A DNA stretch of 29,498 nt, taken from a virus. The stretch is taken from IMG/VR virus record IMGVR_UViG_3300030060_003671, positions 332-29,829 of that record; one strand, given 5' to 3'. The first letter of the stretch is position 1. Each line of letters begins with the position of its first letter. The translations under genes were made by a program, and so were the position numbers. Below the pieces are notes generated by a model that was not told where the DNA came from, did not search any database, and saw only the letters and a list, made by a program, of their open reading frames with translations. Positions 6,140 through 29,498 of this stretch are shown here, piece by piece.

Positions 6140-6163
6140 ATTAATTTTATTATATATTATATT
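6138..6163 (+). promoter_or_regulatory. AT-only translation leader, copy 2
   Basis: This is the second copy of the leader found before 3375. It starts TTATTAATT, ends TATATTATATT and is followed directly by ATGG. It overlaps the end of the terminator's T-run, so the terminator and the next gene's leader are fused. It could serve as a translation enhancer or contain a promoter restarting transcription after the terminator. Confidence 0.4.
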
Positions 6164-6979: not shown

Positions 6980-6985
6980 TCAAAC

Positions 6986-7024
6986 TGTAGAGGCGGTCGC
7001 TCTACGGGGCGATCGCAAACTACA
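6986..7024 (+). promoter_or_regulatory. GC-rich element with two mutually exclusive hairpins
   Basis: Two stems compete for the same bases. Hairpin A pairs GTAGAG (6987-6992) with CTCTAC (7000-7005). Hairpin B pairs GCGGTCGC (6993-7000) with GCGATCGC (7009-7016), eight pairs with one G-U, and can be extended by TGTAG (6986-6990) with CTACA (7020-7024). The 3' flank is A-rich, not T-rich, so it is not a standard terminator. It could be an RNA-processing site, a stability element or an attenuator for the next gene. Confidence 0.5.
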
Positions 7025-7034
7025 ATAAAAAAAT

Positions 7035-7721
7035 ATGGCAGTAAATATAAATACAGTATATCAAAAAGTATTAGCAATAGCTAATAAAGAAAAAAGAGGC
7101 TATATAACTCCTCAAGAATTTAATTTATTTGCTGATCAAGCACAAAAAGAAATATTTGAACAGTATTTTTATGATTTAAATCAATTTAAAAGAATACCTG
7201 GTAATAATACAGTTTCTTCAGATCCTACAGATATTATTGAAGAAAAAATTTCTTTATTCCGAAAACAAAGTGGATCTCAAAACCCGCTTAGCGATGAAGT
7301 GTATAGACTAGAGTCTGTTAGATATAAAGACTCTATCACCGGCACTTTTTATACAGCAGAAGAGGTTAGCAAAAAAGAACACGACGCTCTTGTTTTATCT
7401 AAATTAACAAGACCTACTATTACTAGACCTATATTTTATAGATTAGAAAATGAAATTTATAGATTTCCTGATTCTGGCTATAACGATACACTTCTAGATT
7501 ACATAAAAAAACCAACAACTCCTAGTTGGGCTTATAACATAATAAATCAAAAACCTTTTTATAATAGCACTAATTCTATTGATTTTGAATTACATCACTC
7601 TGATGAATCAGAATTAGTTTATAGAATATTATTTATGGCTGGTGTAGCTATAGAAAAACCACAATTATCACAAGCTGCTGCTGCTTTACAAACTTCAACT
7701 ATACAACAAGAAAAACAATAA
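7035..7721 (+). CDS. Head-tail connector / tail-tube ring protein
   Basis: This 228-aa protein begins with a helical region containing YITPQEFNLFADQAQKEIFE (about 22-41), which I recall from connector/ring proteins of marine Bacteroidota and crAss-like podoviruses. Its size and place after capsid match T7 gp11, the ring joining portal to tail tube. A central beta region (VYRLESVRYKDSITGTFYTA) and a helical, Ala/Gln-rich C-terminus (SQAAAALQTSTIQQEKQ) fit a helical bundle with a beta insert. The next gene starts four bases beyond the stop, so translation is probably coupled. The fold assignment comes from pattern and position. Confidence 0.65.
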   Translation: MAVNINTVYQKVLAIANKEKRGYITPQEFNLFADQAQKEIFEQYFYDLNQFKRIPGNNTVSSDPTDIIEEKISLFRKQSGSQNPLSDEVYRLESVRYKDSITGTFYTAEEVSKKEHDALVLSKLTRPTITRPIFYRLENEIYRFPDSGYNDTLLDYIKKPTTPSWAYNIINQKPFYNSTNSIDFELHHSDESELVYRILFMAGVAIEKPQLSQAAAALQTSTIQQEKQ

Positions 7722-7725
7722 ATAA

Positions 7726-9369: not shown

Positions 9370-9370
9370 C

Positions 9371-12300: not shown

Positions 12301-14236
12301 AACAGATAAAACTTTATATTATTTTAAATCTAAAAGTAATAATAAATATAACCAACCTGATTATCATGGCACTGGTAATGCTGGTGAATTTTTTGGAGTA
12401 AATTCTGATGAAGACGCTTGGAATACTGGAGGTGCAGGTGGTTACTACGATACTGTAGGTAATTTTCCATTAGGTGAAAGCGCGACTGATCCACCTAGTT
12501 ATGCTAATGCTACTTTATATAAATATTTAAAATCAACTAAATCTATTATTCAAAGTTTAGGTGATTTTGATTATGATCCAGCTAATCATACTAGCACTGA
12601 TCCTAATTATGCTAGAAAACAATGGAATACTGTTTTAGGTTTAAAAGCTTGGTATAGAGGTATAAATACAGAGTTAGATCCAGACAAAGCTGCTAATGAT
12701 AGAGTATTAAAATTAGATTTAGAAGAAGATAGGGACAACACAAAGTTTGAAGACGTGTGGTATTTTAATGGTATGAAAAACTCTCGTAATTATCCTTATG
12801 GCACAGTACAACAAAACGGACTTGTTGTTAGCGAAACTTATCCTATAGCAAACTCTGGAGTTGCACACAGTGCTTGGGTTGAAAGAGATGCTTATGCTGG
12901 TTACAGCACTACTTCTGCAATAAATATTGGTTTTGGAGGTATAGAGCCAGAAGAAACTACTGGTTGGGCAACGCAAGGTTACCCATACACAGACTCTGAC
13001 TTTTTTGATTTAATAAACCACTCTACGTTTGCGCCAACGCAGGGTGCTTTTATAAGAAAGTTAGCCGCTGGTAGTCAGTTTAAATTTAAAGAAGATCCAG
13101 CTTCTACTATATATACAGTAACTGATGTTACAATAAGCTATTTAGTAAACTATGATAATTTATGTGAAGATGCAGATTGGGATGGTGTAGGTGCTTATAA
13201 CAATACATCTGCTTCAAATGTAAATCAATTTTTAGGAAATAAAAACATTGTAAACGCTACTAATAATGGTAATACATATTATGAAAATGAATATGATAGT
13301 AGTGGTAATTTAAACGGTAATCCTAGTAGTCCTGGTAATACTGCTGACACTGTAGTTCATTATAGAGCGCCTTCTTTTTTAAATGCTTATAATTTTTCTG
13401 TAAATTATAGATTATCTCTTGACAAGCCTATTGCTTGGAATCCTATTGGCACACCAGGAACTCCAATACCAGGTGGTATAACTTTAACAGTACCAGCATC
13501 TACAAATCCTACTGGCACAAAAGCTTCTAATAGTGGTTTAGCACAAATAGAGCTTGATAGTATAAGTGGTACTACAGATACTGGAGACACAATGAGCGTG
13601 CAAGAGGGTATGGTGTTACATGCTTATGAAGATGATGGTACTACTACACGTACAATAACTAAAATAGCTATAGTTAGTGGTATTTCTTTTGACGACAGTA
13701 CAAATAAATTTACTATTAAATTTAGAGCTTATGACGGTATTGAAGAAGATTTAGAATCAGGAACTGGTAACGGTAAAATTGGAGATATAACTACTGCAGA
13801 TAACTTAGTTTTTAAACAATACTACATGAACGGTATGTGTCCTAACTCTGCTAAAAATTTAAATTATTTTAGAAAAGGCGGTGAGTCATTGCTTAAAACA
13901 GGTGTTGCGCCACTTGGTTATACAATGCAGTTTGTTACTGTTGTTGATGAAGATCAAAGCGAGTTATCACAAAATCCAGCTGTTTGGGAAACAGAGTCTA
14001 AAAAAGATAAAAATTTAGATATTTATTACGAAGCTAGTAATTATTACAAAATATCAACAGACAAGCTAAGCGAAATAATACCAGTAGGCTCTAAAATAGA
14101 ACATGTAGAAAGTAATGGTATACCAGAAGGTGTTACTATTACAAGTGTAGATGATGAAGGTGATATAACTTTATCAGAAGCAGTTACAGTAGTACCTCTT
14201 ATTATTCAACCAGATCACATAGCAGATAGATTTTAA
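9371..14236 (+). CDS. Giant tail-tube/muzzle protein, N-terminal part
   Basis: This 1621-aa protein opens with HNFTTGKMNKDLDERLVQNG and ATNIQVSTSDESDVGSVQNI, a signature I associate with tail tube / muzzle proteins (T7 gp12-like position) of marine and crAss-like podoviruses. The early region is propeller-like (KIYWFVFDTTSG, LLFFTDGTNEPKKINIP). Residues about 305-450 look like an inserted beta-sandwich. The centre has repeated IDILYKEDDS and KYQVGVVYSDEYGRQTPVL strands typical of this family. It lacks the later propeller segments, which are in the next gene, one base downstream and in the +1 frame; TTT-TAA at 14231-14236 allows +1 slippage into it. A short hairpin lies about 20 bases into the gene. 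Confidence 0.75.
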   Translation: MPEIKHNFTTGKMNKDLDERLVQNGEYRHATNIQVSTSDESDVGSVQNILGNKIVEDLSYIDNNCVCIGSIADEKNDKIYWFVFDTTSGSPKSYILQYDKTSVIPVFVDDGNTVLKFSEDKITGINIINDLLFFTDGTNEPKKINIPRSIEGTASSGTDSTEITDYTGADIDAKEENITVIKKSPINAPTIQYNYFRDPTLANIGFINIANIATNRHTFINSSKGRIHDFSTIKVGDTFDTIIETDENFSNDFNLSWQPGTDVILKAFNLDNTPPSLPLQNYDLKGYITDWNNNEFTNTVTPFPIENTTVQTPSWTNSGTANDYYFDSSSGTSGKKLVHYFYDSGAGNEVLDTHRYRLSFELAEYNSILQGRLIIRFHNNGSNYYEIDLDDITVSDAGVYDFTIPEQSFNNSLGQNYPSAIYFQADNDTSSNLFNGVVKNVELTRIDVQIAKVRIKVTSVVGTPPTVPAGSQTLGYAVDLYEDVESLFDLKFARFAYRYKYADNEYSCFSPFSHAVFSPGSFSYHPVEGYNIGMENTVKDITLKNLNDEMPSDVVAIDILYKEDDSTAVYLVDTIKTKDLIFNYNITNDTVKGILPESQLLRVYDNVPINAKAQEVLGNRIVYGNYQQNYDLEYYNDNTSQNEDFNISLNTKINNEENNSGLGIPSIKSSRKYQVGVVYSDEYGRQTPVLTNSDATNEVQLLSAPEINTLQIQINSDGHPVNADYFKFYVKDIGGEYFNLAMDRWYDAEDGNVWLSFASSDRNKVEIDDYLVLKKGVDNNVVDLATKNKYKIIDIKNEAPEFIKANKMLISSKFHNNTGVELFDSSLGCEIPALNGSSFSVKFSRYNSSGLSELETIFNNRPVGDEYFIQIVNEPLSSNRYKVFNIEKTTSGTAKFIFTVEGVFGADMAQFNDDPSNSGTPTLVNDGASLKIFKQRIENSPKFEGRFFVKIFRDEHYNQFISSSIDNDDVEYTTSSATDKTLYYFKSKSNNKYNQPDYHGTGNAGEFFGVNSDEDAWNTGGAGGYYDTVGNFPLGESATDPPSYANATLYKYLKSTKSIIQSLGDFDYDPANHTSTDPNYARKQWNTVLGLKAWYRGINTELDPDKAANDRVLKLDLEEDRDNTKFEDVWYFNGMKNSRNYPYGTVQQNGLVVSETYPIANSGVAHSAWVERDAYAGYSTTSAINIGFGGIEPEETTGWATQGYPYTDSDFFDLINHSTFAPTQGAFIRKLAAGSQFKFKEDPASTIYTVTDVTISYLVNYDNLCEDADWDGVGAYNNTSASNVNQFLGNKNIVNATNNGNTYYENEYDSSGNLNGNPSSPGNTADTVVHYRAPSFLNAYNFSVNYRLSLDKPIAWNPIGTPGTPIPGGITLTVPASTNPTGTKASNSGLAQIELDSISGTTDTGDTMSVQEGMVLHAYEDDGTTTRTITKIAIVSGISFDDSTNKFTIKFRAYDGIEEDLESGTGNGKIGDITTADNLVFKQYYMNGMCPNSAKNLNYFRKGGESLLKTGVAPLGYTMQFVTVVDEDQSELSQNPAVWETESKKDKNLDIYYEASNYYKISTDKLSEIIPVGSKIEHVESNGIPEGVTITSVDDEGDITLSEAVTVVPLIIQPDHIADRF
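9390..9408 (+). other. Hairpin near the start of the 1621-aa tail gene
   Basis: ATTTTACC (9390-9397) pairs perfectly with GGTAAAAT (9401-9408) across a three-base loop ACC, 19 bases into the gene. In a genome whose other start regions are unstructured A/T, an 8-bp stem this close to the ATG could reduce initiation. It may equally be chance in AT-rich DNA. Confidence 0.3.
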
Positions 14237-14240
14237 TATG
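14231..14240 (+). other. Candidate +1 frameshift / reinitiation site TTTTAATATG
   Basis: The upstream gene ends AGA-TTT-TAA. Four T residues (14231-14234) let a phenylalanine tRNA on TTT move one base forward and still pair TTT, while TAA waits in the A site. The new frame reads AAT-ATG and continues into the 572-aa gene. Slippery Phe/Leu codon plus stop is the arrangement of the known prfB +1 shift. Simple termination-reinitiation at ATG 14238 is an equally possible reading. Confidence 0.35.
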
Positions 14241-15956
14241 ACATACTCAATAGAACAAATAATAAATACTGGAGATCTATTTAAGATAACAAAACCAAAT
14301 GGTGATGTTATATATATAGAAATAGATACAATTGGTACTTTAACTAGCGGCCAAACAGACGCGTTTACATTAAAAACAGAAACTCATAATTTTGCTTATG
14401 ATTTAAATTGGCATAATTGTTATAGTTTTGGTAACGGTGTTGAGTCTACTAGAGTTAGAGATGATTTTAATAAAATGCTTTTAGCCCCTGGTGTTAGAGT
14501 TTCTGCAGAGTTTGATGATTATAAAAAAGAAGAAAGAAAAAGTAGTTTAATATACTCTGGTATATATAATAAGTCTAGTAGTTTTAACGAAACAAATCAA
14601 TTTAATTTAGCAGAAAAAATTACAAAAGATTTAAATCCTACATACGGTAGTATACAAAAACTTCACACAAGAGATTCTGATTTAACCGTACTGTGTGAAG
14701 ATAAGGTTTTAAGAATATTATCAAATAAAGACGCGTTGTTTAATGCAGATGGTAATCCTCAATTAATATCTAATGAAAAAGTTTTAGGGCAATCAATACC
14801 TTATGTTGGCGATTATGGTATATCTAAAAATCCAGAGTCTTTTGTTTCAGAAGCGTATAGATCTTATTTTACAGACAAACAAAGAGGTGTTGTTTTAAGA
14901 TTGTCAAGAGATGGTTTAACCCCAATATCTTTGCACGGTATGAAAGATTATTTTAGAGATAATTTAAAAACATCTGATTTATTAATTGGTGGTTATGATA
15001 AAAAGAAAGATCAATATAATTTAACTTTAAACGATATAGAAGAAGGTTTAATAACCGTTAGTTTTCAAGAAAATGTTAGAGGTTGGACAAGCTTTAAAAC
15101 TTATGTACCAGAAAGTAGTGTAAGTTGTTCTAGTGACTATTATAGTTTTGATAAAGGTGAACTATACATACACCACGATGATAGTGTAAATAGAAATCAG
15201 TTTTATGGTGATGATTACGAGTCAGAAATAACTTTACTGTTTAACGATGCGCCTAGTACTATTAAAAACTTTGAAACTATAAATTATGAAGGTACTCAAG
15301 CTAAAATAATAGCAACAACAGAATCTACTGTAAGAACCGATGATGATAGTTATTATAATTTAGAAGACAAGCCTGGTTGGTATTTAAATAGTTTATCTAC
15401 AGATAAAAACAGTGGAGCTGTACACGAGTTTATAGAAAAAGAAGGTAAGTGGTTTAATTACATAAAAGGTGATAATACTGAAATAGATTATAGTTCAAAT
15501 CAAATACAAGGTATAGGTATTATATCGCAAGATACTGTTTTAACAGAAGATGTTACAGATCCAGCTACGGGAATTACAACTACAACGGTTTTAGATGAAG
15601 TTGTTATAACATTTGATGAAGATATTAACACGTCTTTATCTTTAAACGATACTATTCATTATGTTGTAAAAACTAATATTGGCGATGGTGACGTTATTGA
15701 TAGTGCAAATTTAGTTGAATACGACTTGCCAATAGTATCAATTGGTAAAAATACAATTACAGTAGAGCATGATACTGGTGCAAATCCACCTGCAACAATA
15801 TTTGAAGAAGGTGATTTTGTGTTGTTTAAAAAAGACTCTTTAGTAAACAAATCAGGTGTTACAGGTTATTATGCAGAAGCAACGTTTAAAAACGATGCAA
15901 AAATTAAAGCAGAATTATTTTCTGCTAGTTCACAAATAAACGAAAGTAGTAAGTAA
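14238..15956 (+). CDS. Tail-tube/muzzle protein, C-terminal propeller part
   Basis: This 572-aa protein continues the family of the previous gene. Diagnostic segments are WHNCYSFGNGVESTRVRDDF (about 55-74), GSIQKLHTRDSDLTVLCEDK (about 137-156), then YRSYFTDKQRGVVLRLSRDG and LTPISLHGMKDYFRDN: repeated propeller-blade-like strands. In related phages I remember these in the same polypeptide as the N-terminal signature of the gene upstream, so this looks like the second half of a split protein or the product of a frameshift. The C-terminal part (about 330-572) is Thr/Asp/Ser-rich and beta-like. TAA-T-ATG spacing at both ends means it could also be made by reinitiation. It is probably part of the short tail through which DNA exits. 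Confidence 0.7.
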   Translation: MTYSIEQIINTGDLFKITKPNGDVIYIEIDTIGTLTSGQTDAFTLKTETHNFAYDLNWHNCYSFGNGVESTRVRDDFNKMLLAPGVRVSAEFDDYKKEERKSSLIYSGIYNKSSSFNETNQFNLAEKITKDLNPTYGSIQKLHTRDSDLTVLCEDKVLRILSNKDALFNADGNPQLISNEKVLGQSIPYVGDYGISKNPESFVSEAYRSYFTDKQRGVVLRLSRDGLTPISLHGMKDYFRDNLKTSDLLIGGYDKKKDQYNLTLNDIEEGLITVSFQENVRGWTSFKTYVPESSVSCSSDYYSFDKGELYIHHDDSVNRNQFYGDDYESEITLLFNDAPSTIKNFETINYEGTQAKIIATTESTVRTDDDSYYNLEDKPGWYLNSLSTDKNSGAVHEFIEKEGKWFNYIKGDNTEIDYSSNQIQGIGIISQDTVLTEDVTDPATGITTTTVLDEVVITFDEDINTSLSLNDTIHYVVKTNIGDGDVIDSANLVEYDLPIVSIGKNTITVEHDTGANPPATIFEEGDFVLFKKDSLVNKSGVTGYYAEATFKNDAKIKAELFSASSQINESSK

Positions 15957-17662: not shown

Positions 17663-18082
17663 ATGAATAATGAAATAATTTTCCGTAGTTTTAACAACTC
17701 GGATTATAATACGGTTTCAAAATGGTGGAACTGGTGGTGGGGAGAAAAAGGTGCTATAGAAAAAGAATATCTACCACATAATAATTATTGCTATATAATT
17801 GGCAAAAAAAAAGAAATGGTAGCTGCTGGCTTTTTGTTTACTGATAAACATGCTCCAGTTGGTTATTTAACTTATGTAGTTTCAAACCCTAACTACAGAC
17901 AAAAAGATAGAAGAAGTATTATAGAACAATTAATACTTAATATAGAAAGACAAGCAAAGCAAGAGGGTATAAAGTTTATATTCACTGTTTGCGGTAATGT
18001 TCACATGGAAAATATTCACAATAAATTAAGCTGGACTATAGATAAAACTGCACCGGCTTATGAAACTTTTAAATACATATAA
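17663..18082 (+). CDS. GNAT-fold protein, T7 gp13-like position
   Basis: This 139-aa protein has a GNAT acetyltransferase layout: N-terminal beta-alpha unit with a Trp-rich stretch (KWWNWWWG, about 20-27), strands CYIIGKKKEMVAAGFLF and GYLTYVVSNPNYR, a long helix (RSIIEQLILNIERQAKQEG), then the strand FIFTVCG. The acetyl-CoA loop is expected after NPNYR, but here reads QKDRRS in place of the usual Gln/Arg-x-x-Gly-x-Gly/Ala, so catalysis is doubtful. Length and position, between tail tube and the three ejection-type genes, match T7 gp13 (138 aa), a virion assembly factor whose family I recall being grouped with acetyltransferases. I therefore favour an assembly role. The A/T leader TTAAATTAA precedes the ATG. 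Confidence 0.65.
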   Translation: MNNEIIFRSFNNSDYNTVSKWWNWWWGEKGAIEKEYLPHNNYCYIIGKKKEMVAAGFLFTDKHAPVGYLTYVVSNPNYRQKDRRSIIEQLILNIERQAKQEGIKFIFTVCGNVHMENIHNKLSWTIDKTAPAYETFKYI

Positions 18083-18084
18083 AT

Positions 18085-18789
18085 ATGGGAGGAAGAGCAA
18101 GAAGACGTATTGCTAGAGAATCAATGGATTTTGCAAAACAGCAAGTTGCTGCTTATAAGCAAGAACAAGCTATTCAAAGAGACATTTTAGAAAAACAAAA
18201 AGAAGAGTATAGACAATTTGAGTTTGTTAATCCGTATAGAGATTTACAAAACTATTACGAAGACATGGAAAATGTTTTTGAAGACTTAACTGTAGATACT
18301 CAAGCTGCAGACTTTCAAATGGAAAGAGGTGAGCAACAAAGAGCTAATATATTACAAGCTCTTAGAGGTGCTGCTGGTGGTAGCGGTATAGCTAATTTAG
18401 CGCAATCTTTAGCTAATCAAGGTGTAATACAAGCCGCACAAGTATCAGCTAATATAGCTCAACAAGAAAGACAAAACAAAGTTTTAGCCGCAAGAGCTGC
18501 TAGTCAAATACAAACCGCTGAAAGAGGTGGTATGGCCGCTGCTGATATGGCACAGAGAGGTGGTGAGGCTATGGTTCAGCAAGCAGAAATGTCAAGAGTA
18601 AACACTTTACTTGGTATAGAGTTTAGTGGTATGGCCGGTGCTAACGCTGGATTACAAGCTGCTTATGCTAATCAAATGGGTGCATTTGGTTTGGATGCGC
18701 AAATGTTAGGTGCTCAAATGGGTATGTATGGTCAAATATTTAGCGGTATAGCTCAAGGCGGTGGTAAGGTTGGCGCTGCAATGATTTAG
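18085..18789 (+). CDS. Internal virion / ejection protein (T7 gp14-like)
   Basis: This 234-aa protein has a basic N-terminus (GGRARRRIARES), a charged coiled-coil to about residue 55, a segment NPYRDLQNYYEDMENVFEDL (about 51-70), and a Gln/Ala/Gly/Met-rich second half from about 100 with amphipathic helices (AAGGSGIANLAQSLANQG). Such low-complexity Ala/Gln helices are typical of small ejection proteins like T7 gp14, which inserts in the outer membrane and starts the transfer channel. The place, just after the GNAT gene and before two larger virion proteins, fits gp14. It ends in tandem stops, TAG TAA (18787-18792). Function is inferred. Confidence 0.65.
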   Translation: MGGRARRRIARESMDFAKQQVAAYKQEQAIQRDILEKQKEEYRQFEFVNPYRDLQNYYEDMENVFEDLTVDTQAADFQMERGEQQRANILQALRGAAGGSGIANLAQSLANQGVIQAAQVSANIAQQERQNKVLAARAASQIQTAERGGMAAADMAQRGGEAMVQQAEMSRVNTLLGIEFSGMAGANAGLQAAYANQMGAFGLDAQMLGAQMGMYGQIFSGIAQGGGKVGAAMI

Positions 18790-18808: not shown

Positions 18809-20665
18809 ATGGCAAAAAAACAAGGATTACCATCTATATTAGGAAGAACAGACGCTACGTTAGTAAACGCTGCTTATAAAGCTGCTATGGCTAACGTGCC
18901 TAGAAGTTTACAACCTGTTTACGAACAAATAGGTAACTCTTTTGAAAGAGGTATGAGCGCTTTAGGTAAAGGATTAGGAGATTTAGCATCAGCAGCTGGT
19001 GATATAGGTGCGGCTTTAATAGAAAAACAAAAAGAAGAAGACGAAAACACAGGCGTAACAAGAAGCTATGAAAATAATACAGACTTTACAAGCACTGAAG
19101 ACCCCGCAAGTGAAACTGATCCTGTTTCTACGTTTGAATCTACTCAAAAACATACAGATAGCTCTGGAAACACAGTTGATTTTGAAATAAATAGTTTAGA
19201 TGATGAGTTAGCAAAAATAAATAAAGAGCTTAGATCTTTAGCCCCTATTATTGGTAGTAGTGAATTAAAAGGTGATGAAAGAAAAAAAGCAAGAAGAGCT
19301 TTAAAAGAAAGAAGAGATAATATATATGAGTCAGCAAAATCTTATGAAGTTTCTTCTAAGTTAATAGGTGAGTATTTAAAGCCAGAAAATTTTGTTATAA
19401 ACCCTGAAAGAATTGATGACGCTAATTTTTTAAGAGCTTTAAAAAATAATGGCAGGCCTTTAGGTGATGGCTCTAGAGCATTAAAAGGTTATGACAATGA
19501 AGGAAATATTATATTTTCTTATGTGGATAAAAATGGTAAGCCTATAGAAGATTCTTTTGGTAACAATCTTACTGTTGATCAAAACAGTGTTAAACGTTTA
19601 ATAGTACCTGCTAACGGTGTGGTTAGTGTTGATTTTGCTAATAGTGAAAAATCTGCTCTTGACAATGGTTTAAAAGGTATAACGCTAACCGATCCCGACA
19701 AAAAAGTTATTGCTCAATCAGCTACAGGAAAAATAAAAACATCTGCTGATTTTGAGTGGGCTGCTAGTATAAAGTATGGTGATAAATCTTTATTTGAAGA
19801 TTTAAACTCTGCAGATTTAAGTAAAACTTCTTTTAGGTTATTTAGCTCGTTAAGCGTAGCTGAATTTGATGCGGGTAAAAAAGACGGTGTAGTAGATGCT
19901 AGTGATTTTGCTAATAACCCAGATAATTATAAAAAATTAAAATCTGCTTTGTTAAATCCAAGAGATCCTAATTTTAACTTAGGAGTTTCAAAAGCTTTTT
20001 TAAGCGATTTTGTAAAAGATCAATCTACTGCAATAAACGCTCGAGGTTTACAAAAGTATGTACCATCAGGAAATGATAGCGATGGCACTGCGACAGAAAG
20101 AGAAAACGCTCGTAAAGTACAATCTTTTGTTGCAACTGCTAATGATGTACAGGCTGGAGAAGAAGCACCTCCTATAAATTTAGGTGATGGTAACTTTTTA
20201 AGTATTAAAAAAGATCCTAATGTAGATCAAAACGATCCAAAAGGTGGTTTAATACTTGAACTAACTAGCACAGATGAAGATACAGACGAAAGAACAGTTC
20301 GACAAGTTAATTACCAAAGCGCTATAGACATGTTAACAGAGAATAGTGGCTTTAGAGCTAAAGATGTATTTAAAGATCAAACTTGGTATGTTGCTGGAGC
20401 AACTGGTTTTAACTCTGCAAACGTGTTAGGCGCTTTAAGTGAATCAGAAAGAAAAGATGATGATGCTGTTATTCCTGTACTAAGAGATAAACTTAGAAGA
20501 AATTATCCAGATAAGTTTAAAGTAAGTGAGCCTAGAGCTTTATTTGCACAAGAAATAAAAATAGAAGTCAGAGACACAGAACCGCCTAAGTCAATTACTT
20601 TAAATGTTAACGACGCTGACTTTAATGAAAACTTAGATAAATTTATCAACGAAAACGCTGAATAA
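18809..20665 (+). CDS. Internal virion / ejection protein (T7 gp15-like)
   Basis: This 618-aa protein lies between the 234-aa and giant virion proteins, equivalent to T7 gp15 (747 aa), a component of the periplasmic DNA-transfer tube. Residues about 1-75 contain amphipathic Ala/Gly-rich helix (ERGMSALGKGLGDLASAAGD), then a disordered Thr/Glu/Asp-rich linker (to about 125), then a helical charged region and a mixed domain. An EF-hand-like loop, DAGKKDGVVDASDF (D354-F367), has acidic residues and glycine in nearly the right spacing, but one extra residue at the front. I see no enzyme motif. The next gene begins immediately after the stop (TAA then ATG), so translation is probably coupled. Role inferred from order. 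Confidence 0.6.
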   Translation: MAKKQGLPSILGRTDATLVNAAYKAAMANVPRSLQPVYEQIGNSFERGMSALGKGLGDLASAAGDIGAALIEKQKEEDENTGVTRSYENNTDFTSTEDPASETDPVSTFESTQKHTDSSGNTVDFEINSLDDELAKINKELRSLAPIIGSSELKGDERKKARRALKERRDNIYESAKSYEVSSKLIGEYLKPENFVINPERIDDANFLRALKNNGRPLGDGSRALKGYDNEGNIIFSYVDKNGKPIEDSFGNNLTVDQNSVKRLIVPANGVVSVDFANSEKSALDNGLKGITLTDPDKKVIAQSATGKIKTSADFEWAASIKYGDKSLFEDLNSADLSKTSFRLFSSLSVAEFDAGKKDGVVDASDFANNPDNYKKLKSALLNPRDPNFNLGVSKAFLSDFVKDQSTAINARGLQKYVPSGNDSDGTATERENARKVQSFVATANDVQAGEEAPPINLGDGNFLSIKKDPNVDQNDPKGGLILELTSTDEDTDERTVRQVNYQSAIDMLTENSGFRAKDVFKDQTWYVAGATGFNSANVLGALSESERKDDDAVIPVLRDKLRRNYPDKFKVSEPRALFAQEIKIEVRDTEPPKSITLNVNDADFNENLDKFINENAE

Positions 20666-23600
20666 ATGTTTACATTAGGAGATAATCAATATACTTTAGA
20701 ACAGCTTAAAGGTTTTGCTTCTAAAAGAGGCGAAGACTTTGATTTGTATTTTACATCATTGCAACAAATGGGCTTGCAAGGTGAAGGTTATACTCCTAAA
20801 ATAGAAGGTAGTAAAACAGCTGAATTACCTCAAATAACACCTGCTGATGTTGATTTAACCGAAGAACAGTTTGTAACAAAATATAAAGATGTTTTAAGTA
20901 TGATGGGCTTTAAAGTTGAACAAGCAAATCGTCGTATACCTATAGGAAGAGGCTTAGGAGTTGGTATTCCAGGTACAGATGCTATAACTATTACTTCGCC
21001 GCCTGATGAAAACAAAAACACTGTTTCAGAAACTTTTGGTGTAGACGTACTTAACCTTTTTATGGGTGAACAGCATAGAGGTAAAGCCAGTAAAATTAAT
21101 GATTTTATTAAACAACATGTTGACAAAAGTAATATTGATTTAAACTTTTTTTCAGCTGGTTATCAAACTGCAAGAGAAAAATACGACTCTGTAGATTTTG
21201 AAAATTTAAGCGCAAAAGAAATTTTTGAAATACAAAACGATATATCTAATGATATTTTTAATAGCGGTGATGCTGTTACTAAAGTTGTTGCTGACATAGC
21301 AGTTGGCATGCAAGATTTACAAAAAAACACTATTAACAACTTAAGTAAAAAATACAACGTAGCAGATATAAGCCAAAGCTCTGAAGCTATGCAAGAGTAT
21401 ACCTTTACAATGGGTAAAGAGTTTGATAAAAGGCTTGACGAAAGTGAAGATTTAAAAAGATTAGAAAAACTTACTGGAGAAATAGCTGAAAATGTTTTTA
21501 AACCTGCTTTAAAACCGCAATTAGCAAAAGAAGAAGAAGACGAAGTTCTTAGCGAAACAGCAACTGGTAGAGCAATAATTAAAGGTCTTAGAAGAAACCC
21601 AAAACTAGATAAATTATTTAGAGCTATTTACGGAACTGCAGGTGTTAAATTTCCAAAAGCAGATGCTGATTTTACTAAATTAAATATTGATGAAAGAATA
21701 GGAAATATAAGCGCTGAACTAGAAGAATTAAAACAAAAAGATCCTAACGAAAAAATTAACGTTATAGGTGTTTTTAACCAAAAATCTCCTGAGTTAAATG
21801 TAAAAGGTGGTATATATACTGTTGCTGAAAGAATAGAGCAAATAAACAATATTATGCCTAAGTTAGAAGAACAAGCTAGCCAACAGTTTGCTAAAGGAAA
21901 AGAATATCAAGAAAAACTTCAAAAGCTTAATGTAGTAGAGCTTTATGATGAAGATTTAAGTATTGATGTAGACGGTGAAAAGCTATATAGTATGATAGGT
22001 GATCAAGGTGTCCAAATGCTTAGCGTTATGCTTAGTGGTGGTGGTTCTACTATGGTGCAAGAAGCTGGTAATGCTTACGCGGAAATAACATCGCAAAAAG
22101 CAGCTATGAAAATGTTTCCAGATTTAGAGTTAAAAGAAGCTTTAAAAGCTTTTTATAAAGAAGATATTAAAACTCAAGCCGATGCTATATTAGAGTTAGT
22201 TAAAAATGGTGAGTCTGACACAGACATAGCTTTTAGTATTGGCGGTGTTAACGCTAGTTTAGATATGGCTGGTGCGTATATAGGATTTAGTAAAGCGGTA
22301 AAGTTTTTACCAAAAAAATTAACAAGACAGTTTATAGACGGAGAGTATATAAAGTTTTTACAAGGTGGTTATAAATCTTTTGGTAAAGATGTAGCTATTT
22401 CTATGTTTGCAGAAACTTTAACAGAAACTTTGCAAGAAGGTGTTAATTTGTTCGGCGTGTCAAGAGCTACTGGCGTTAATCCTAAAGTAAAAGAAATTAA
22501 AAAAAGAGTATTAGAGGCTGGTACTCAAGCTATGCTTGCTACAGGGCCGTTAGTTGGTGGTGGTAAAATTGTAACTACAGGTTCAAAAGAGCTTTTAACA
22601 CAATTTGTAGCGCATACAAATCCTGATCATAAAAGAAATTTTATAAACCAAGCAAGAAAAAAAGTAGATTTAGAATACAAAAACGGCAAAAGATCAAAAG
22701 AAGATAGAGACGCAATACATGATCAGCTTGATATGATGGACGAGTATACTAACTTAGATCTTCTTGGTGATAATAAAAAATCAAAAGAAAATTATATTAA
22801 CGCTGCAACAGAAGATGTTGTTTTAAGAAGACAACAAGAAAAATTAGAGTCTGAACAAAAGACTCTTGAAAAGTTTGGCGGTGTTGATCCTATGGGTGGA
22901 AGAGGTAGTGTTGCTATTGATTTAGAATTAAATAAAATTAAGAAAAAAAGAGAAGCTCTTAGTAAGAAAAAAATGAAAGCCGTACGAACAGGTAATTATT
23001 TGCAGAGTCTTAAAAGCATAAGCTACGCAATAAACAATACACAAGACGGTGTGTTAGGTGATAAAACAATAACTAGTTTTGAATTTGTTGAAGGGGCTCT
23101 AAAATATATTGATGGTAAAAAATATAATATTACCAAAGGTCAAAGAGATAGACTTGAAAATGGAGAAAGCACTGCTATTACTTTTGGAAATGAAACTATA
23201 GCTGTAAAAGAAAATGCTATTAACTTGATTAATAAAAATGATCCATATTCTACTAATTCAATACACCACGACGGTTTACATTTAATACTAAATGCGTTTA
23301 ATGATAAACAACTAAAAGAAGCAAGAAATTTATTAACTAAAGAGCTTGGTAAATCTACTGATCCGTTACAAATAAAAATGAACGAAGATATAGCTGGTAG
23401 ATTTTTACAATATGTAGCTGATCCAGATTATAAAGGTCGTGCTTTAGACGAAGAGTTTTTTACAGCAGTATCTGATGTTTACAAAGCTTATACCTTGGCA
23501 AATCTTAATACAGAAAGCGCCGGTGTGTTTGATCTTTTGGCAGAAGGATTTAGAAATATTTTTAGAAAAAACACTGGCATGAACTTAGATTTAGAAAAGC

Positions 23601-26600
23601 TAGATCCTGGTACTATGTTAGAGTTCATAAAACAGTATAATGCTTTTAACGGTAAAACTGGTGTTGCTGCTCCTTCAAGAACAGCGTTAGTAGCTTCGGA
23701 AGTTGATGATAAAAACGCTAAAGAGTCTAAAGAAGCTTCGGATCAAGTACAACAAATATTTGAACAAAGAGGTGTAGCTGGTGCTATGGATATTATAGAT
23801 TTATTTAAACCTATAACAGCTAGAATAGCAGAAGAACGTAGAAATGCACCAAACTACGACAAAGAGCTTTTAATGAGTGAAATAGAAATAGGTAAGCGTG
23901 GAATATTTGACTTGATTAGAGATTACAAGGTTGAGTCTGGCGTGCCATTAGCTGCTTATATTAATACTAATTTAAGAAGAAGAGCTATAGAAGCTTCTAG
24001 AAGAGTTTTAGGCGAAGAGTTTACAGAAGATGTTTCAACAAGAGTTGATATAGCTGAAAGAGAAGTAGATGTAGAAGTATCAAGACCACGAAGAAAAAAG
24101 ATTAATTTAGCTGAAAGACTTGGTGTTAAAAACAAAGTAGATGAAATTATATCTAAAAAACTATCAGACTTAGATATAAACAATTTAAACTTTAAAAACT
24201 TAAAAAACTTAGTACCTGAAATAGTTGGCGAGCTTTACGGTATATCACCTAAAAAAATAGAAAACTTAGCTAATATAACTAAAAAAGAGTTACAGTCAGC
24301 TCAAATGTTTATTAATAAAAACGCTGATTTATTAATAGCTATGTTACCAGAAGGTGCTACGTCAAGTGGTACAGCGACTGGCGTGCCTAAAACTTTATTA
24401 AACGAGTTTTATACTAAAACTGATAGAGCTAAAATGGCTGAAACTGGTACTAAAGCTGGTTTAGCAATACAAGTTAAAAATAAAAACATAGATAAAACTA
24501 AATTTTTAGAAGTATTTGGCATTGTTGACGGTAAACCTGTACGTACAGACAGAAACACGTCGGCTCGAGTTTTAGCAATAGCTAATCAAACGGGTAAAAT
24601 GCTTACTAATCAAAGTGTAAGACAACAGTTATTAGACAATGGCCAAGTAGCTAGCGCTTTGTTTAAAATAGAAGATGGCAAATCACCTGCTATGGAATCA
24701 AAAGCTGCTGCTAATTTAAAACCTGAAAAACTTGCTGAGTTGTTGCTTAGATTACCTAGCGTTGGTAATATAATATCACCACTCATACCAGTATATAGAA
24801 AAAAATATTTAGTTGAGGCTATGGAAATTATATACAGCGGTGTTTTAAGTGCTGATCAAATAGTAGACTTAACAAACGATATACATAACATAATAAAGCA
24901 ATACGTAAAAGAACCTATTGACAATGTTAAAATAACTAAAAAGCCTGAAGATTTTAACAAGTATTTACTTGATGAATTACTTAATTTTGATTTAAGTATA
25001 TTAGAAATAACAGGTGTTAAAGGTAAAACCCAAGATCAATTATTTTTAGATTTAGATTTAATTAAAGAGCAAAGAGCGGGTGCTGTAATTGCTGTTAAAA
25101 AATTAATTGACAAACACGGTATTGAACAAGGTCTTAGATACGCTTTAGCATTTATGAAGCCTATGTATGCTGGAGCTTCTAAAATAGCTGACGGCAGATA
25201 CGACGTAAATAGTGAAGGTGATGTGTTTTATATTGGAGATGAAGCTGTAAAAAAATTAAAAAAAGCAAAAGGTAAAGAAACTTTAAAAAATAGAAAACAA
25301 GTATTTAAAAATGTACCTGATTTTGTAAATGTTTTAAATAAAGGTGTGCCTGGTTTAAATATAGTTTATACAGGAAAAAATTTAAGTACAGCAATTTTTA
25401 ATTATAAAGGCAAAGCTATAAACGTAAACACTAGTGTTATAAATCAAACTAGTGAGACTTTTATAAGTAAAATTAAAAATGAGGGCGAAGCTGCTGTTAA
25501 AAAACAAAGTTTAAAAGAAGCTAAGGAAGCTAGAGAATTAGTTAATGATCTTATAACTATATTTAACGAGGAAAGTAGCTTGTCTAACACTAATTTAGCG
25601 ATGATGCTTTTTAGCTTAAACTCTAACATGAAAGCGCCTATGCGTAGAGCAGCTAATTTGCTTTATGTGTCAGAAAATTATAATACATTTAGCAAGCCTG
25701 GTAGTGAGTTAGAATATGAGCACATGATACCTGCTAACTGGATGATGATTAAAACATTACAAGCTAATCTAGCTGAAGGCGGTATAAAAGATTTAGATAG
25801 TTTTTATAAAAACTACAACGTAGCTATTATACCTAAAACAATGGATAAAAATATAAAAGCCGTTGGTTATAATTCTATTATGCCTAGTGATTATAAATTA
25901 ACAGATCCTGCTTGGAAAAGATATTACAACAATAGAACTTTAGTTCAAAAAGATATAGTTGCTATTAGAGAAATAGGTACTAATAAAATTATAGGTGAAA
26001 ATTATGCAAAAGTTAATTTTATAAAAGACCCTAAAAAAGCTCAAACTTTTGAAAAAGCAATACAAAAAGGTAGAGAAGTAGGTGTTGAAAGTAAAGGTAT
26101 AAGTATTTTAGATTTTGATGATACTTTAGCTGTTAGCCAATCGTTAGTTAAGTTTACTACACCTGAAGGCACCACAGGATCTTTAACGCCAGCAGAATAT
26201 GCTAGTACATACGAAGACTTATTAGGCCAAGGTTATGTATTTGATTTTTCTGAGTTTAACAAAGTTATAAAAGGTAGAACAGCACCGCTGTTTCAAAAAG
26301 CTTTAAAACTTGCTAATAAATTTGGCACAAAAGATATGTTTGTTTTAACTGCTAGACCACCTGAGTCTGCTGTTGCTATATTTGAATTTTTAAAAGCAAA
26401 TGGTTTAAATATACCTTTAAAAAATATAACTGGCCTTGCAAACTCTACAGCTGAAGCAAAAGCGTTATGGGTTGCTGAAAAAGTTGCTGATGGTTACAAT
26501 GACTTTTATTTTGCTGACGATGCGTTGCAAAATGTGCAGGCAGTTAAAAATATATTAGATCAATTTGATGTTAAATCAAAAGTTAGACAAGCAAAAGGAG

Positions 26601-28645
26601 CTGAGAGTAAAGCTGCTATGAACAAAGCATTTAATGAAATACTTGAAAACGTTACTGGCATTGGTGCTGATAAAAGATTTGGCGCTGCTAAAGCTAGAAA
26701 ACGTGGTGCTAGCAAAGGTAAATTTAGATTTTTTATACCGCCATCACATGAAGATTTTGTAGGTTTATTATACAACTTTATGGGTAAAGGTAGAATAGGT
26801 GATAGTCATAGAGACTTTTTTGAAAAAACTTTAATAAAACCTTTAAACAGAGCTTTTAGAGAGCTTGATACCGCTAGACAGTCTATAGCAAACGATTATA
26901 AAGCTTTAAATAAACAAATGCCTGAGGTTAAAAAACTGTTTAAAAAAGAAGTGCCAACAGGTGATTTTACTTATGAAGACGCTATAAGAGTTTATTTGTT
27001 TGATAAGCACGGGCATACTGTACCTGGTTTAAGTAAAAAAGATCAAGCAGATCTTGTTAGCTTGGTTCGTAATGATGAAAAGTTATTAGCTTATGCTGAG
27101 GCTTTAAACATAATATCAAAGCAAGAAGATTATGTTGCTCCTACAGAGACTTGGGACACAGGTGATATTAGAGTTGATTTAGACGATGCAACTGGTAGAG
27201 TTGGTAGAGCTCAGTTTTTTAAAGAGTTTAGTGATAACGTTGATATTATATTTTCTACAGAAAACTTAAACAAAATTGAAGCTGCTTACGGTAAAGAGAT
27301 GAGAGACTCTATACTAGATATGCTTTATAGAATACAAACAGGCAGAAATAGACCTCAAGGTCAAGACGGTTATGTAAACGTGTTTGTAGATTATTTAAAT
27401 GGATCTGTTAGTACTGTAATGTTTTTTAATGTTAGATCAGCTATATTACAGCAATTATCTTTTGTAAACTTTATAAACTTTGCTGATAATAACTTATACG
27501 CTGCTGCAAAAGCCTTTGCAAATCAAAAACAATATTGGGCTGATTGGGCTATGTTATTTAACTCTGATTTTATGAAACAAAGGCGTGGCGGTATTAGAAC
27601 AGACGTTAACGGCGCTGAATTAGCACAAGCTGTTGCAAAATCAGATAGTCCAACACGTACTGTTATACAAAAGTTATTACAAATAGGTTTTTTACCTACA
27701 CAAATTGGTGATAATATTGCAATTGCTTCTGGTGGTGCTACAATGTATAGAAATAGACTTAATACTTATTTAAAACAAGGTTTAAGTAAAAAAGAAGCTC
27801 AAGAAAAAGCTTTTGCTGATTTTCAAGAAATAGCAGAAGCTACACAGCAGTCCGCAAGACCTGATATGGTTTCAAAACAACAGTCTTCTGTTGCTGGTAA
27901 AATAATATTAAATTTTCAAAACGTTACTTCACAGTATAATAGATTAATGAAAAAATCTTTTTCAGATTTAATTAATAGAAGAATATCTAAAGGTTATACC
28001 ACTCAAGCCCAAAGTGATTTAGCTAATGTAAATAAAATATTATATTATGGTGCTGTACAAAATATAATATTCTATAGTTTACAGTCTGCTTTATTTATGA
28101 TGTTATTTGATGATGACGATGAAGAGTTTTTTGATAAGAAAAAAGAAAGAGTTTTAAACGGTAGCTTAGACAGTATATTAAGAGGTGCTGGTATATATGG
28201 TGCTATTGCTTCTACGTTAAAAAATGTTGTTAGACAGTTTAGAAAACAACGTGAGTCTAAAAGACCAGATATGACTGCTGTTGCTATAGAAGCCTTAAAC
28301 TTATCACCTGTTATAGGTATTAAAGCTAGTAGAATAGTAGGTGCAGAAAAAACCTTAGTATATGATAAGAGGGCTATAGAAAAAATGGGTGATTTTGATA
28401 TTGACAATCCACATTTTGACGCATATACAGCTTATATTGAAGCAATACTTAATCTACCATTAAATAGAGTTTATAGAAAAACTATAAATACTAGAAACGC
28501 TTTTGACTCACAATATAAAGCATATCAAAGATTATTATTCTTTAGTGGTTATACTACATATAATTTAGGTATAAAAAACAAGGAAGTTGAAAAATACAAA
28601 AAAAGAAGAAAAAGTAAACAAGGTAAAAAAATACATATTTATTAA
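20666..28645 (+). CDS. Giant multi-domain ejection/polyvalent protein (T7 gp16-like position)
   Basis: This 2659-aa protein occupies the T7 gp16 position but is twice its length and lacks a transglycosylase motif I can see. In order: helical N-terminal region; low-charge, membrane-prone segment about 450-660; IHHDGLHLIL with HDGLH at 868-872 and EEFFTAVSD downstream, metallopeptidase-like; sigma-70 region 2-like helices about 1079-1118 (GVPLAAYINTNLRRRAI); conserved-looking stretch about 1220-1335 (LPEGATSSGTATG); HNH-like EYEHMIPAN (H1686) to IIPKTMDKN; HAD domain about 1812-1990 with DFDDTL (D1816, D1818), TAR (T1895), K1932 and FADD (D1951, D1952); helical C-terminal region; one hydrophobic segment about 2459-2481 followed by DDDDEE; very basic tail. 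The mix fits the phage large polyvalent protein concept, delivered with the DNA. HAD is firm; the other domains are inference. Confidence 0.7.
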   Translation: MFTLGDNQYTLEQLKGFASKRGEDFDLYFTSLQQMGLQGEGYTPKIEGSKTAELPQITPADVDLTEEQFVTKYKDVLSMMGFKVEQANRRIPIGRGLGVGIPGTDAITITSPPDENKNTVSETFGVDVLNLFMGEQHRGKASKINDFIKQHVDKSNIDLNFFSAGYQTAREKYDSVDFENLSAKEIFEIQNDISNDIFNSGDAVTKVVADIAVGMQDLQKNTINNLSKKYNVADISQSSEAMQEYTFTMGKEFDKRLDESEDLKRLEKLTGEIAENVFKPALKPQLAKEEEDEVLSETATGRAIIKGLRRNPKLDKLFRAIYGTAGVKFPKADADFTKLNIDERIGNISAELEELKQKDPNEKINVIGVFNQKSPELNVKGGIYTVAERIEQINNIMPKLEEQASQQFAKGKEYQEKLQKLNVVELYDEDLSIDVDGEKLYSMIGDQGVQMLSVMLSGGGSTMVQEAGNAYAEITSQKAAMKMFPDLELKEALKAFYKEDIKTQADAILELVKNGESDTDIAFSIGGVNASLDMAGAYIGFSKAVKFLPKKLTRQFIDGEYIKFLQGGYKSFGKDVAISMFAETLTETLQEGVNLFGVSRATGVNPKVKEIKKRVLEAGTQAMLATGPLVGGGKIVTTGSKELLTQFVAHTNPDHKRNFINQARKKVDLEYKNGKRSKEDRDAIHDQLDMMDEYTNLDLLGDNKKSKENYINAATEDVVLRRQQEKLESEQKTLEKFGGVDPMGGRGSVAIDLELNKIKKKREALSKKKMKAVRTGNYLQSLKSISYAINNTQDGVLGDKTITSFEFVEGALKYIDGKKYNITKGQRDRLENGESTAITFGNETIAVKENAINLINKNDPYSTNSIHHDGLHLILNAFNDKQLKEARNLLTKELGKSTDPLQIKMNEDIAGRFLQYVADPDYKGRALDEEFFTAVSDVYKAYTLANLNTESAGVFDLLAEGFRNIFRKNTGMNLDLEKLDPGTMLEFIKQYNAFNGKTGVAAPSRTALVASEVDDKNAKESKEASDQVQQIFEQRGVAGAMDIIDLFKPITARIAEERRNAPNYDKELLMSEIEIGKRGIFDLIRDYKVESGVPLAAYINTNLRRRAIEASRRVLGEEFTEDVSTRVDIAEREVDVEVSRPRRKKINLAERLGVKNKVDEIISKKLSDLDINNLNFKNLKNLVPEIVGELYGISPKKIENLANITKKELQSAQMFINKNADLLIAMLPEGATSSGTATGVPKTLLNEFYTKTDRAKMAETGTKAGLAIQVKNKNIDKTKFLEVFGIVDGKPVRTDRNTSARVLAIANQTGKMLTNQSVRQQLLDNGQVASALFKIEDGKSPAMESKAAANLKPEKLAELLLRLPSVGNIISPLIPVYRKKYLVEAMEIIYSGVLSADQIVDLTNDIHNIIKQYVKEPIDNVKITKKPEDFNKYLLDELLNFDLSILEITGVKGKTQDQLFLDLDLIKEQRAGAVIAVKKLIDKHGIEQGLRYALAFMKPMYAGASKIADGRYDVNSEGDVFYIGDEAVKKLKKAKGKETLKNRKQVFKNVPDFVNVLNKGVPGLNIVYTGKNLSTAIFNYKGKAINVNTSVINQTSETFISKIKNEGEAAVKKQSLKEAKEARELVNDLITIFNEESSLSNTNLAMMLFSLNSNMKAPMRRAANLLYVSENYNTFSKPGSELEYEHMIPANWMMIKTLQANLAEGGIKDLDSFYKNYNVAIIPKTMDKNIKAVGYNSIMPSDYKLTDPAWKRYYNNRTLVQKDIVAIREIGTNKIIGENYAKVNFIKDPKKAQTFEKAIQKGREVGVESKGISILDFDDTLAVSQSLVKFTTPEGTTGSLTPAEYASTYEDLLGQGYVFDFSEFNKVIKGRTAPLFQKALKLANKFGTKDMFVLTARPPESAVAIFEFLKANGLNIPLKNITGLANSTAEAKALWVAEKVADGYNDFYFADDALQNVQAVKNILDQFDVKSKVRQAKGAESKAAMNKAFNEILENVTGIGADKRFGAAKARKRGASKGKFRFFIPPSHEDFVGLLYNFMGKGRIGDSHRDFFEKTLIKPLNRAFRELDTARQSIANDYKALNKQMPEVKKLFKKEVPTGDFTYEDAIRVYLFDKHGHTVPGLSKKDQADLVSLVRNDEKLLAYAEALNIISKQEDYVAPTETWDTGDIRVDLDDATGRVGRAQFFKEFSDNVDIIFSTENLNKIEAAYGKEMRDSILDMLYRIQTGRNRPQGQDGYVNVFVDYLNGSVSTVMFFNVRSAILQQLSFVNFINFADNNLYAAAKAFANQKQYWADWAMLFNSDFMKQRRGGIRTDVNGAELAQAVAKSDSPTRTVIQKLLQIGFLPTQIGDNIAIASGGATMYRNRLNTYLKQGLSKKEAQEKAFADFQEIAEATQQSARPDMVSKQQSSVAGKIILNFQNVTSQYNRLMKKSFSDLINRRISKGYTTQAQSDLANVNKILYYGAVQNIIFYSLQSALFMMLFDDDDEEFFDKKKERVLNGSLDSILRGAGIYGAIASTLKNVVRQFRKQRESKRPDMTAVAIEALNLSPVIGIKASRIVGAEKTLVYDKRAIEKMGDFDIDNPHFDAYTAYIEAILNLPLNRVYRKTINTRNAFDSQYKAYQRLLFFSGYTTYNLGIKNKEVEKYKKRRKSKQGKKIHIY

Positions 28646-29498
28646 TGAAAAAACTATTTATACTATTATTAGTTATTTTAACAGCTTGTGCAGCCCCTAA
28701 AAAATGTTGCAGTCAAGATATAAAAAAAATATTTAAATTCTCTACGTTTTATGCAGCTGCAAATGGTGGTACGTCAATATCAGATGTTGATGTGTTTTCT
28801 GTTACAAATGGTTTGCAAACGTCAACAATTAAAACCCCTTATGATTATAATTTAGTATTAGGTATACGTAAAATAGCTAGGTTTGGTTATGAAAACAGAG
28901 CACAAACTTTTTACGACGGTACAGAAAATTCATGGTCAGATGGTGCTAACATAGGTAAGGTATCTGGTTTAGAGTTTTTGTTTGAAGTTGATTACAGTAG
29001 ACAACAAGGCAACGAGTATATTGATCAACATCATTTTGTTAGATTTGTGCAAGATAAATATATATTAAAAGGTGAATATTTAGAAGATGGTTTTGCAGAT
29101 GTTAAATATGTTGAAACATCTGAAAGATATAGATATAAAATAAGTAATAAGTTTTCGCTTAATATAGGTGCTGCTCAAAGACTATCAGAGCCGTATGGCT
29201 ACGATCCGCTTGAAGAGTGGAAGTTAGATAATGGTGGTATACATTATACATATTTAGCTTTACAAGAAGGTTACAATGTAGATGTGTTTAATTCTGAGTA
29301 TACAGATCCAGCTGGTAACATAGTAGCTACATCAGCTGATGTTTGGGAACAAATTGTTATACCTACTGTATTAGCAGACTATACTGAAAGAAAACGTAAT
29401 GAATTAGACCAAATAATACAGCACTCGTTAGTATTAGGTTTTGATTATTATCATTACACTAAAATGTTTTGGACACATGCTTGGGCTAATGTTATGCC
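28645..29498 (+). CDS. Signal-peptide (probable lipoprotein) protein of unknown function (3' truncated)
   Basis: The ATG overlaps the giant gene's stop by one base (TAATG), so the two are translationally coupled. The frame is open for 284 codons to the window edge. The N-terminus is a signal peptide: MKK, a hydrophobic core of Leu/Ile/Val, then LTAC with Cys15, a lipobox; Cys21 and Cys22 follow. The mature part begins KIFKFSTFYAAANGG and has many aromatic, alternating strands (DYNLVLGIRKIARFGYENRA, then GLEFLFEVDYSRQQGNEYID), which suggests beta-barrel or outer-membrane association. I recall similar proteins in the same place in marine phages but know no function. Possibilities are superinfection exclusion, an envelope-active lysis factor or a virion component. 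Export to the outer membrane is inferred. Confidence 0.7.
   Translation, partial: MKKLFILLLVILTACAAPKKCCSQDIKKIFKFSTFYAAANGGTSISDVDVFSVTNGLQTSTIKTPYDYNLVLGIRKIARFGYENRAQTFYDGTENSWSDGANIGKVSGLEFLFEVDYSRQQGNEYIDQHHFVRFVQDKYILKGEYLEDGFADVKYVETSERYRYKISNKFSLNIGAAQRLSEPYGYDPLEEWKLDNGGIHYTYLALQEGYNVDVFNSEYTDPAGNIVATSADVWEQIVIPTVLADYTERKRNELDQIIQHSLVLGFDYYHYTKMFWTHAWANVM

Follow-up and report, generated by a model that had tools for sequence, protein, structure and literature searches.

A giant putative ejection protein with exchangeable N-terminal domains in an uncultured podovirus related to Bacteroidota phages

The window (the whole stretch of DNA that we analysed) covers 29.5 kb of a 31.2-kb IMG/VR virus record. 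A single open frame of 2659 codons occupies positions 20666-28645 on its plus strand. The ATG of this frame follows directly after the stop of the gene for a 618-aa protein (18809-20665), the downstream gene overlaps its stop codon by 1 base, and the opposite strand is packed with stop codons. The same protein, referred to below as the giant, is encoded at full length on 2 further contigs with 94% identity; because of these near-identical copies, an assembly fusion is excluded. The giant ORF is real, as the original prediction had claimed. It adjoins late and virion genes, following the structural genes in a gene order common to cultured phages. The features of the locus are listed below, with the type of evidence in brackets.

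18085-18789, plus strand: 234-aa Gln/Ala-rich protein, first of a putative ejection cassette (homology to phi38:1 gp099 and phi18:3 gp120)
18809-20665, plus strand: 618-aa protein, second of the putative ejection cassette (position of phi40:1 gp100 and phi18:3 gp121)
20666-28645, plus strand: the giant, a candidate polyvalent protein at the ejection position, 2659 aa (open frame, 179 confirmed relatives of the C-terminus, recorded MS/MS of positional counterparts)
20666-23083, plus strand: residues 1-806, clade-specific N-terminal region, exchanged between relatives (only three relatives, at 93-97%, were found with it)
23084-23647, plus strand: residues 807-994, zincin-like metallopeptidase domain (leave-clade-out profile, hhalign, model)
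23267-23281, plus strand: residues 868-872, HDGLH, counterpart of HExxH (third ligand E930 at 23453-23455)
23717-24016, plus strand: residues 1018-1117, sigma-70 region 2-like domain (structural matches, hhalign)
24017-24706, plus strand: residues 1118-1347, conserved domain always adjoining the sigma-2-like part (conservation, pLDDT)
25610-26056, plus strand: residues 1649-1797, EH..P / R-Y/F-x-N module (conservation, profile)
26072-26590, plus strand: residues 1803-1975, HAD phosphatase domain, polynucleotide-phosphatase-like (motifs, profiles, VIA rows)
26591-28591, plus strand: residues 1976-2642, family-constant helical C-terminal domain, proposed carrier or encapsidation part (79/79, BFVD fold)
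28052-28108, plus strand: residues 2463-2481, conserved hydrophobic helix, weak membrane candidate (hydropathy 1.42, consensus)

The terminase, portal, capsid, and most later genes are homologous to those of cultured relatives and are kept in the same order. The portal is 53% identical to that of a circular podovirus genome from Manatee Spring, 47% to that of Maribacter phage Panino, and 41% to those of the Flavobacterium elemo phages; the identities to Cellulophaga phages phi38:1 and phi18:3 are 37% and 29%, respectively. Judged by these sequences, the phage is kin of the Bacteroidota podoviruses with a P22-like portal (Cellulophaga phi38:1, phi40:1, and phi18:3 and the Flavobacterium elemo phages). 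A T7-like (Autographiviridae) neighbourhood was rejected, since the relatives of the terminase, portal, and capsid are Bacteroidota podoviruses with a P22-like portal. The gene had originally been placed where T7 has gp16; it does close a cassette of three genes, but in a phage that is not T7-like, and T7 synteny was the wrong comparison.

Several neighbouring genes differ from their counterparts or carry features of their own. The structural protein encoded at 7726-9369 matches 285-308-aa proteins of cultured relatives with both of its ends and has ~240 additional residues in its middle. In phi38:1 and elemo, a single gene stands in place of the two at 9371-15956 (1621 and 572 aa); the 1621-aa product also has ~260 additional residues after its N-terminal part. 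The 139-aa protein encoded at 17663-18082 shows weak acetyltransferase similarity (phrog_3810, E 0.015); its homologues lie at the same place in cultured phages, where phi40:1 gp098 is annotated as MS/MS-detected. Downstream, the gene at 28645-29496 starts within the stop codon of the giant and has 90 homologous ORFs among the loci; its protein begins MKKLFILLLVILTACAAPKK, with a lipoprotein-type signal and a lipobox. A phage lipoprotein encoded beside the putative ejection cassette may function in exclusion or in the envelope.

The order TerL, portal, MCP, ..., g12, g13, giant matches that in cultured phages, with the homology of most genes up to g12 anchoring the synteny. The giant gene closes the structural module in all of these cultured and related phages, with the exception of Gundel, where it lies just before the terminase. 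The giants at this place comprise 3859 aa in MW202828, 3694 in elemo, 1829 in Panino, 1691 in phi38:1 and phi40:1, and 1935 in phi18:3. The 234-aa protein is homologous to phi38:1 gp099 (E 2.9e-8) and phi18:3 gp120 (E 3.3e-7), and in 75 of 76 relatives a homologue of it is encoded no more than 3.5 kb ahead of the giant; a PDB profile search with this protein returned no match. The 618-aa protein has a detectable homologue directly upstream of the giant in 37 of 76 loci and no sequence match among cultured phages.

In the deposited records, phi40:1 gp097-gp101, of which gp101 is the 1691-aa giant, carry the note "experimental MS/MS proteomics", as do phi18:3 gp120, gp121, and gp123, the last being the giant. 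Going by these records, the presence of the cassette, including the giant, in virions is supported for the cultured counterparts. The Cellulophaga giants are not annotated consistently: a "structural" label transferred from the same source sits on a small gene preceding the giant in phi19:3, phi13:2, and phi46:3, unlike in phi18:3. Phage phi40:1 has no small gene there and is unaffected. The loci with the shifted label are L156 (phi19:3, 24056-29991), L159 (phi46:3, 6119-12958), and L160 (phi13:2, 8119-14366); the annotation splits the phi46:3 giant into two ORFs. The mass spectrometry on virions of a cultured relative that the original prediction proposed as a check is thus on record for the positional counterpart (phi40:1 and phi18:3), not for this protein. 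The HxxxH and HAD motifs are absent from phi18:3 gp123 and phi38:1 gp101, and for this reason the virion evidence does not extend to the cargo domains described below.

Direct sequence searches with the giant (Pfam, phage records, PADLOC, PDB) returned nothing useful, PHROG 415 being the sole match. A first scan gave 19 relatives, and a scan with an alignment of the C-terminus gave 179 confirmed relatives in IMG/VR. From these 179, we analysed 84 distinct chains, 79 of them full-length (2032-3383 aa, median 2560). One of the loci (L106) is a 6.6-kb contig with a giant that was binned in a Maricaulis metagenome-assembled genome; a stray phage contig is likelier here than a prophage. Among the 79 full-length chains, the C-terminal domain and an H[ED]xxH motif are present in all 79 and the HAD profile in 78. 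The order is zincin, HAD, C-terminal domain in 67/67 chains, and zincin, sigma module, HAD in 16/16. Ahead of the zincin, by contrast with the constant C-terminal ~680 residues, 77 N-termini fall into 10 clusters. Because the C-terminus is constant, the domain order fixed, and the N-termini variable, we read the layout as a constant carrier with exchangeable cargo, in which the C-terminus would have the carrier role. The chain of the giant itself contains two or more unrelated domains, namely the zincin, the sigma-2-like domain, and the HAD phosphatase.

The zincin-like domain was recovered by a profile built without the window clade, which matches the giant at residues 821-992 with 38.7 bits. 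All 29 aligned relatives keep H868, H872, and E930. A chance origin of the HxxxH motif was considered; in a protein with the composition of the giant, H[ED]xxH is expected 0.015 times. The elemo giant carries the same domain (hhalign probability 84%, E 7.6e-6). The model, at low to moderate pLDDT, has three strands followed by the HxxxH helix and then by a later helix with the Glu, an arrangement that corresponds to the core described for polyvalent metallopeptidases (PMC5512222). HExxH is found in 75 and HDxxH in 4 of the 79 full-length relatives; in the window clade, the catalytic Glu is replaced by Asp at 869 (HDGLH). Because of this replacement, which would be expected to cripple the enzyme, peptidase activity of the window zincin is doubtful on sequence grounds. 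The metallopeptidase originally proposed therefore stands as a domain with its zinc triad, but its motif is HDGLH, not HExxH, and the canonical catalytic Glu has been lost in this clade.

Outside the sigma-2 module, confidence in the model of residues 740-1760 is low (mean pLDDT 49.7). Within the module, a helical domain spans residues 1018-1117, with most pLDDT values between 64 and 87. All of the 50 VIA-align rows for this model are sigma factors, belonging to many subfamilies and covering residues 1018-1117, mostly over ~90 residues, with Z values of 6.2-8.4, a middling range that, as the tool warns, helical bundles can reach by chance. Foldseek lists sigma factors at E-values no better than 0.15. 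An RpoD/FliA-type region 2 profile aligned with hhalign gave P 0.0014 for the whole module and 3.7e-4 for its first 110 residues, both in the same register, and this match beat 200 of 200 column-permuted decoys as well as 23 windows of the C-terminal part. We favour the sigma region 2 reading because no other family was listed and because the profile match falls in the same register. HMMER sequence searches (Pfam with 27 members, PDB, and PF04542 on the record) missed the domain, no match to sigma region 4 was found in the domain adjoining it, and hhalign of the module against the cultured giants gave no match. A sigma-like alignment in phi38:1 gp101 (867-931, E 0.046) was not used. Of the sigma-like segment in the original prediction, region 2 is thus retained, by fold and by profile, and region 2 only.

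The sigma module is present in 18 of the 79 full-length chains by profile count and in 30 loci by a scan with the module itself; in most of these 30, it lies ~160-190 residues after HxxxH. Its mean column identity is 66% over 27 loci. Much of the adjoining domain (residues 1118-1347) is modelled at pLDDT 76-92, and the searches made here found no relative of it. Its coding region, 24017-24706, holds the most conserved stretch of the module, GTATGVPxTLLxxFYTKTDRAK.

Between the sigma module and the HAD domain lies a segment that had been called HNH-like. It is a real, conserved module, with a profile match in 26/79 relatives, but its invariant residues are E-H..P and R-Y/F-x-N, and no HNH, family, or PDB match to it was found; on this evidence, we have dropped the HNH reading.

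The HAD domain has all the expected elements, as had been predicted: motif I DxDxT/V, motif II T/S, and the motif IV acidic pair. Conservation is 90% or more at the corresponding residues, D1816/D1818/T1820, T1895-A-R1897, and D1951/D1952. When the window clade was left out of a HAD profile, the profile matched the giant at residues 1805-1975 with 294 bits. The phrog_415 profile "polynucleotide kinase" matches the giant at 1809-1971 (E 3.2e-4) and 5/18 relatives; all 26 aligned members match Pfam DUF2608 (best E 4.2e-6), and some show weak matches to the Pfam HAD, acid phosphatase B, and NIF families. VIA over this region returned Rossmann-type rows, class C acid phosphatases among them, and covered other parts poorly. 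In seven relatives (L015, L034, L055, L061, L071, L074, L079), the HAD domain is interrupted ~35 residues after motif I by an inserted P-loop kinase, which is of the AAA_33/zeta type. Since this pairing is the one seen in polynucleotide kinase-phosphatases, it suggests an end-healing enzyme, whose substrate would be nucleic acid ends. A different insert occupies the same point in L068, and in L018 (5141-14089) the HAD region is duplicated, with the DFDDT motif found only in the first copy.

The model of residues 1640-2659 has a mean pLDDT of 67. For its helical C-terminus, Foldseek found no significant match in the PDB. In BFVD, by contrast, 42 matches were found at E<=0.001 (E 1e-11 to 1e-3; 10-15% identity), and many of these are named PolyVal ADP-ribosyltransferase or large polyvalent protein-associated domain (LPD) proteins; no Pfam LPD family matched the giant at E 0.01. 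The cultured giants and the window giant show no detectable sequence similarity at the C-terminus, including by hhalign; what they have in common is position and, weakly, fold. The fold matches include phi19:3 S0A015_2 (E 2.7e-3), whose length of 936 is that of the second half of an 1871-aa protein. The sole protein of 1871 aa in phi19:3 is gp129, so that, judged by length, S0A015 is gp129. This protein is 88% identical to phi18:3 gp123 and locally 23% to phi38:1 gp101. Through it, the predicted fold may weakly link the window giant to a giant annotated by MS/MS. The membrane segment of the original prediction corresponds to the helix at residues 2463-2481, which is conserved in the family and has the highest 19-residue hydropathy in the giant; its value of 1.42 lies below the usual cut-off of 1.6 for a transmembrane helix, and it is a weak candidate.

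We interpret the giant as a polyvalent ejection protein of an uncultured marine podovirus, in which swappable cargo is joined to a carrier and which would be delivered like the N4 virion RNA polymerase (vRNAP). We give this reading a probability of roughly 0.68. A packaged polyvalent protein at the ejection position is well supported by the recorded MS/MS of the counterparts together with the fold match of the C-terminus. Since its positional counterparts in cultured relatives are recorded in virions, the giant probably enters the bacterium together with the viral DNA. Its carrier would be the constant C-terminal ~680 residues, probably docked in the head with the proteins encoded at 18085-18789 and 18809-20665, and the N-terminal three quarters would be the exchangeable cargo. 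On infection, the giant would leave the particle together with the DNA or before it, for which the N4 vRNAP and T7 gp16 are precedents, the latter recruiting host RNA polymerase (PMC12633501), and it would be active in the cell before the phage genes are read. The sigma-2-like domain may dock on the clamp of the host RNA polymerase and either steer the enzyme to phage DNA or block the host sigma. The HAD domain may strip 3' phosphates at nicks in DNA or on tRNAs that host defence has cleaved. A host take-over before transcription could follow from these activities. The fuller version, in which a virion giant with a fixed C-terminus and swapped cargo captures host RNA polymerase at entry through the sigma-2-like domain and its partner and repairs DNA or tRNA through an end-healing phosphatase, with a nested kinase in some members, is tentative, and we would not bet on all of its parts.

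As a variant of the polyvalent ejection reading, the zincin might cleave the giant itself, in the head or after entry, and free the cargo, so that the fragments would be the functional units. Each chain has a single zincin, which separates the variable N-terminus from the remaining parts and has HExxH in 75/79 relatives; moreover, P1 DdrB is processed before packaging, and the N4 vRNAP carries a zincin (PMC5512222). Yet the N4 vRNAP is packaged unprocessed (PMC5512222), the HDxxH of the window clade is expected to be poor or dead, and no cleavage site is known. We consider self-processing possible, though rather on the unlikely side.

Lower again in our estimate is the possibility that the giant is packaged but that most of its domain resemblances are vestigial, the zincin and sigma-2-like parts being inactive and lending their helices to the structure of the channel or core, with nothing catalytic delivered except perhaps the HAD domain. 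The Asp in place of the catalytic Glu in the window clade, a sigma region 2 that stands without region 4, and cultured giants at the same position that lack the HxxxH and HAD motifs are all in line with such a structural role. It sits poorly, however, with the retention of HxxxH and the third-ligand Glu in all aligned relatives (HExxH in 75/79) and with the conservation of at least 90% in the HAD catalytic motifs, and a kinase inserted in the HAD domain is hard to explain without catalysis. That the giant stays outside the mature virion and has a late role in the cell that makes the particles, be it in assembly, in prohead processing, or in the timing of lysis, is improbable: phi40:1 gp099-gp101 and phi18:3 gp120, gp121, and gp123 are recorded as MS/MS-detected virion proteins, and the fold match is to phage polyvalent proteins, a class argued to be injected (PMC5512222). 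This last alternative draws on the fact that the virion data concern counterparts only and that the annotation of the Cellulophaga giants is partly inconsistent.

Polyvalent proteins have been known since 2017 (Iyer et al. 2017, PMC5512222). The giant resembles them as a very long chain of unrelated domains encoded beside virion genes, in its zincin with HxxxH and a downstream Glu, and in its C-terminus, which has the fold of LPD-annotated proteins. It differs from them by its sigma-region-2-like domain and its HAD phosphatase with, in relatives, the nested kinase; the main text of the survey (PMC5512222) contains neither the term "sigma" nor the term "polynucleotide kinase". Like the N4 vRNAP gp50 of the Schitoviridae, which is delivered through the tail, it is the last and giant member of a three-protein set, with domains on a string and a zincin. 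In contrast to gp50, with which no sequence similarity was found, it has a sigma-2-like domain, which would make use of the host enzyme; no single-subunit RNA polymerase domain was found in it by Pfam, PHROGs, or PDB profile searches, and the folded models cover residues 740-2659. The phi40:1/phi38:1 gp101 and phi18:3 gp123 proteins are giants at the same place and in the same order among homologous neighbours, but they are shorter (1691-1935 aa), have neither an HxxxH nor a HAD motif, and show no detectable similarity at the C-terminus. As with T7 gp16 and P22 gp16, the giant follows two smaller ejection-type proteins; it is about twice as long as T7 gp16, comes from a different phage lineage, and no sequence match with the T7 or P22 gp16 was found. 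Its HAD domain is matched by phrog_415, and kinase and phosphatase are joined in seven relatives, as in the T4-type polynucleotide kinase-phosphatase; the giant, however, has the phosphatase only, and the kinase of the relatives lies inside the HAD domain, just after motif I. To our knowledge, and in the literature searched, the sigma-2-like domain, the HAD domain with a nested kinase, and the carrier and cargo layout of this phage family have not been described.

Podoviruses without a virion RNA polymerase of their own face the problem that N4 faces, namely to start transcription and to survive host defence before the phage genes are read. If our reading is true, a sigma-2-like domain delivered from the virion would be a direct solution by way of the host enzyme, and an end-healing enzyme delivered with it would act before any new phage proteins exist. 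The family of giants is common in IMG/VR and has cultured relatives in Cellulophaga and Flavobacterium, and its constant C-terminus provides a handle for reading the cargo domains that lie upstream of it.
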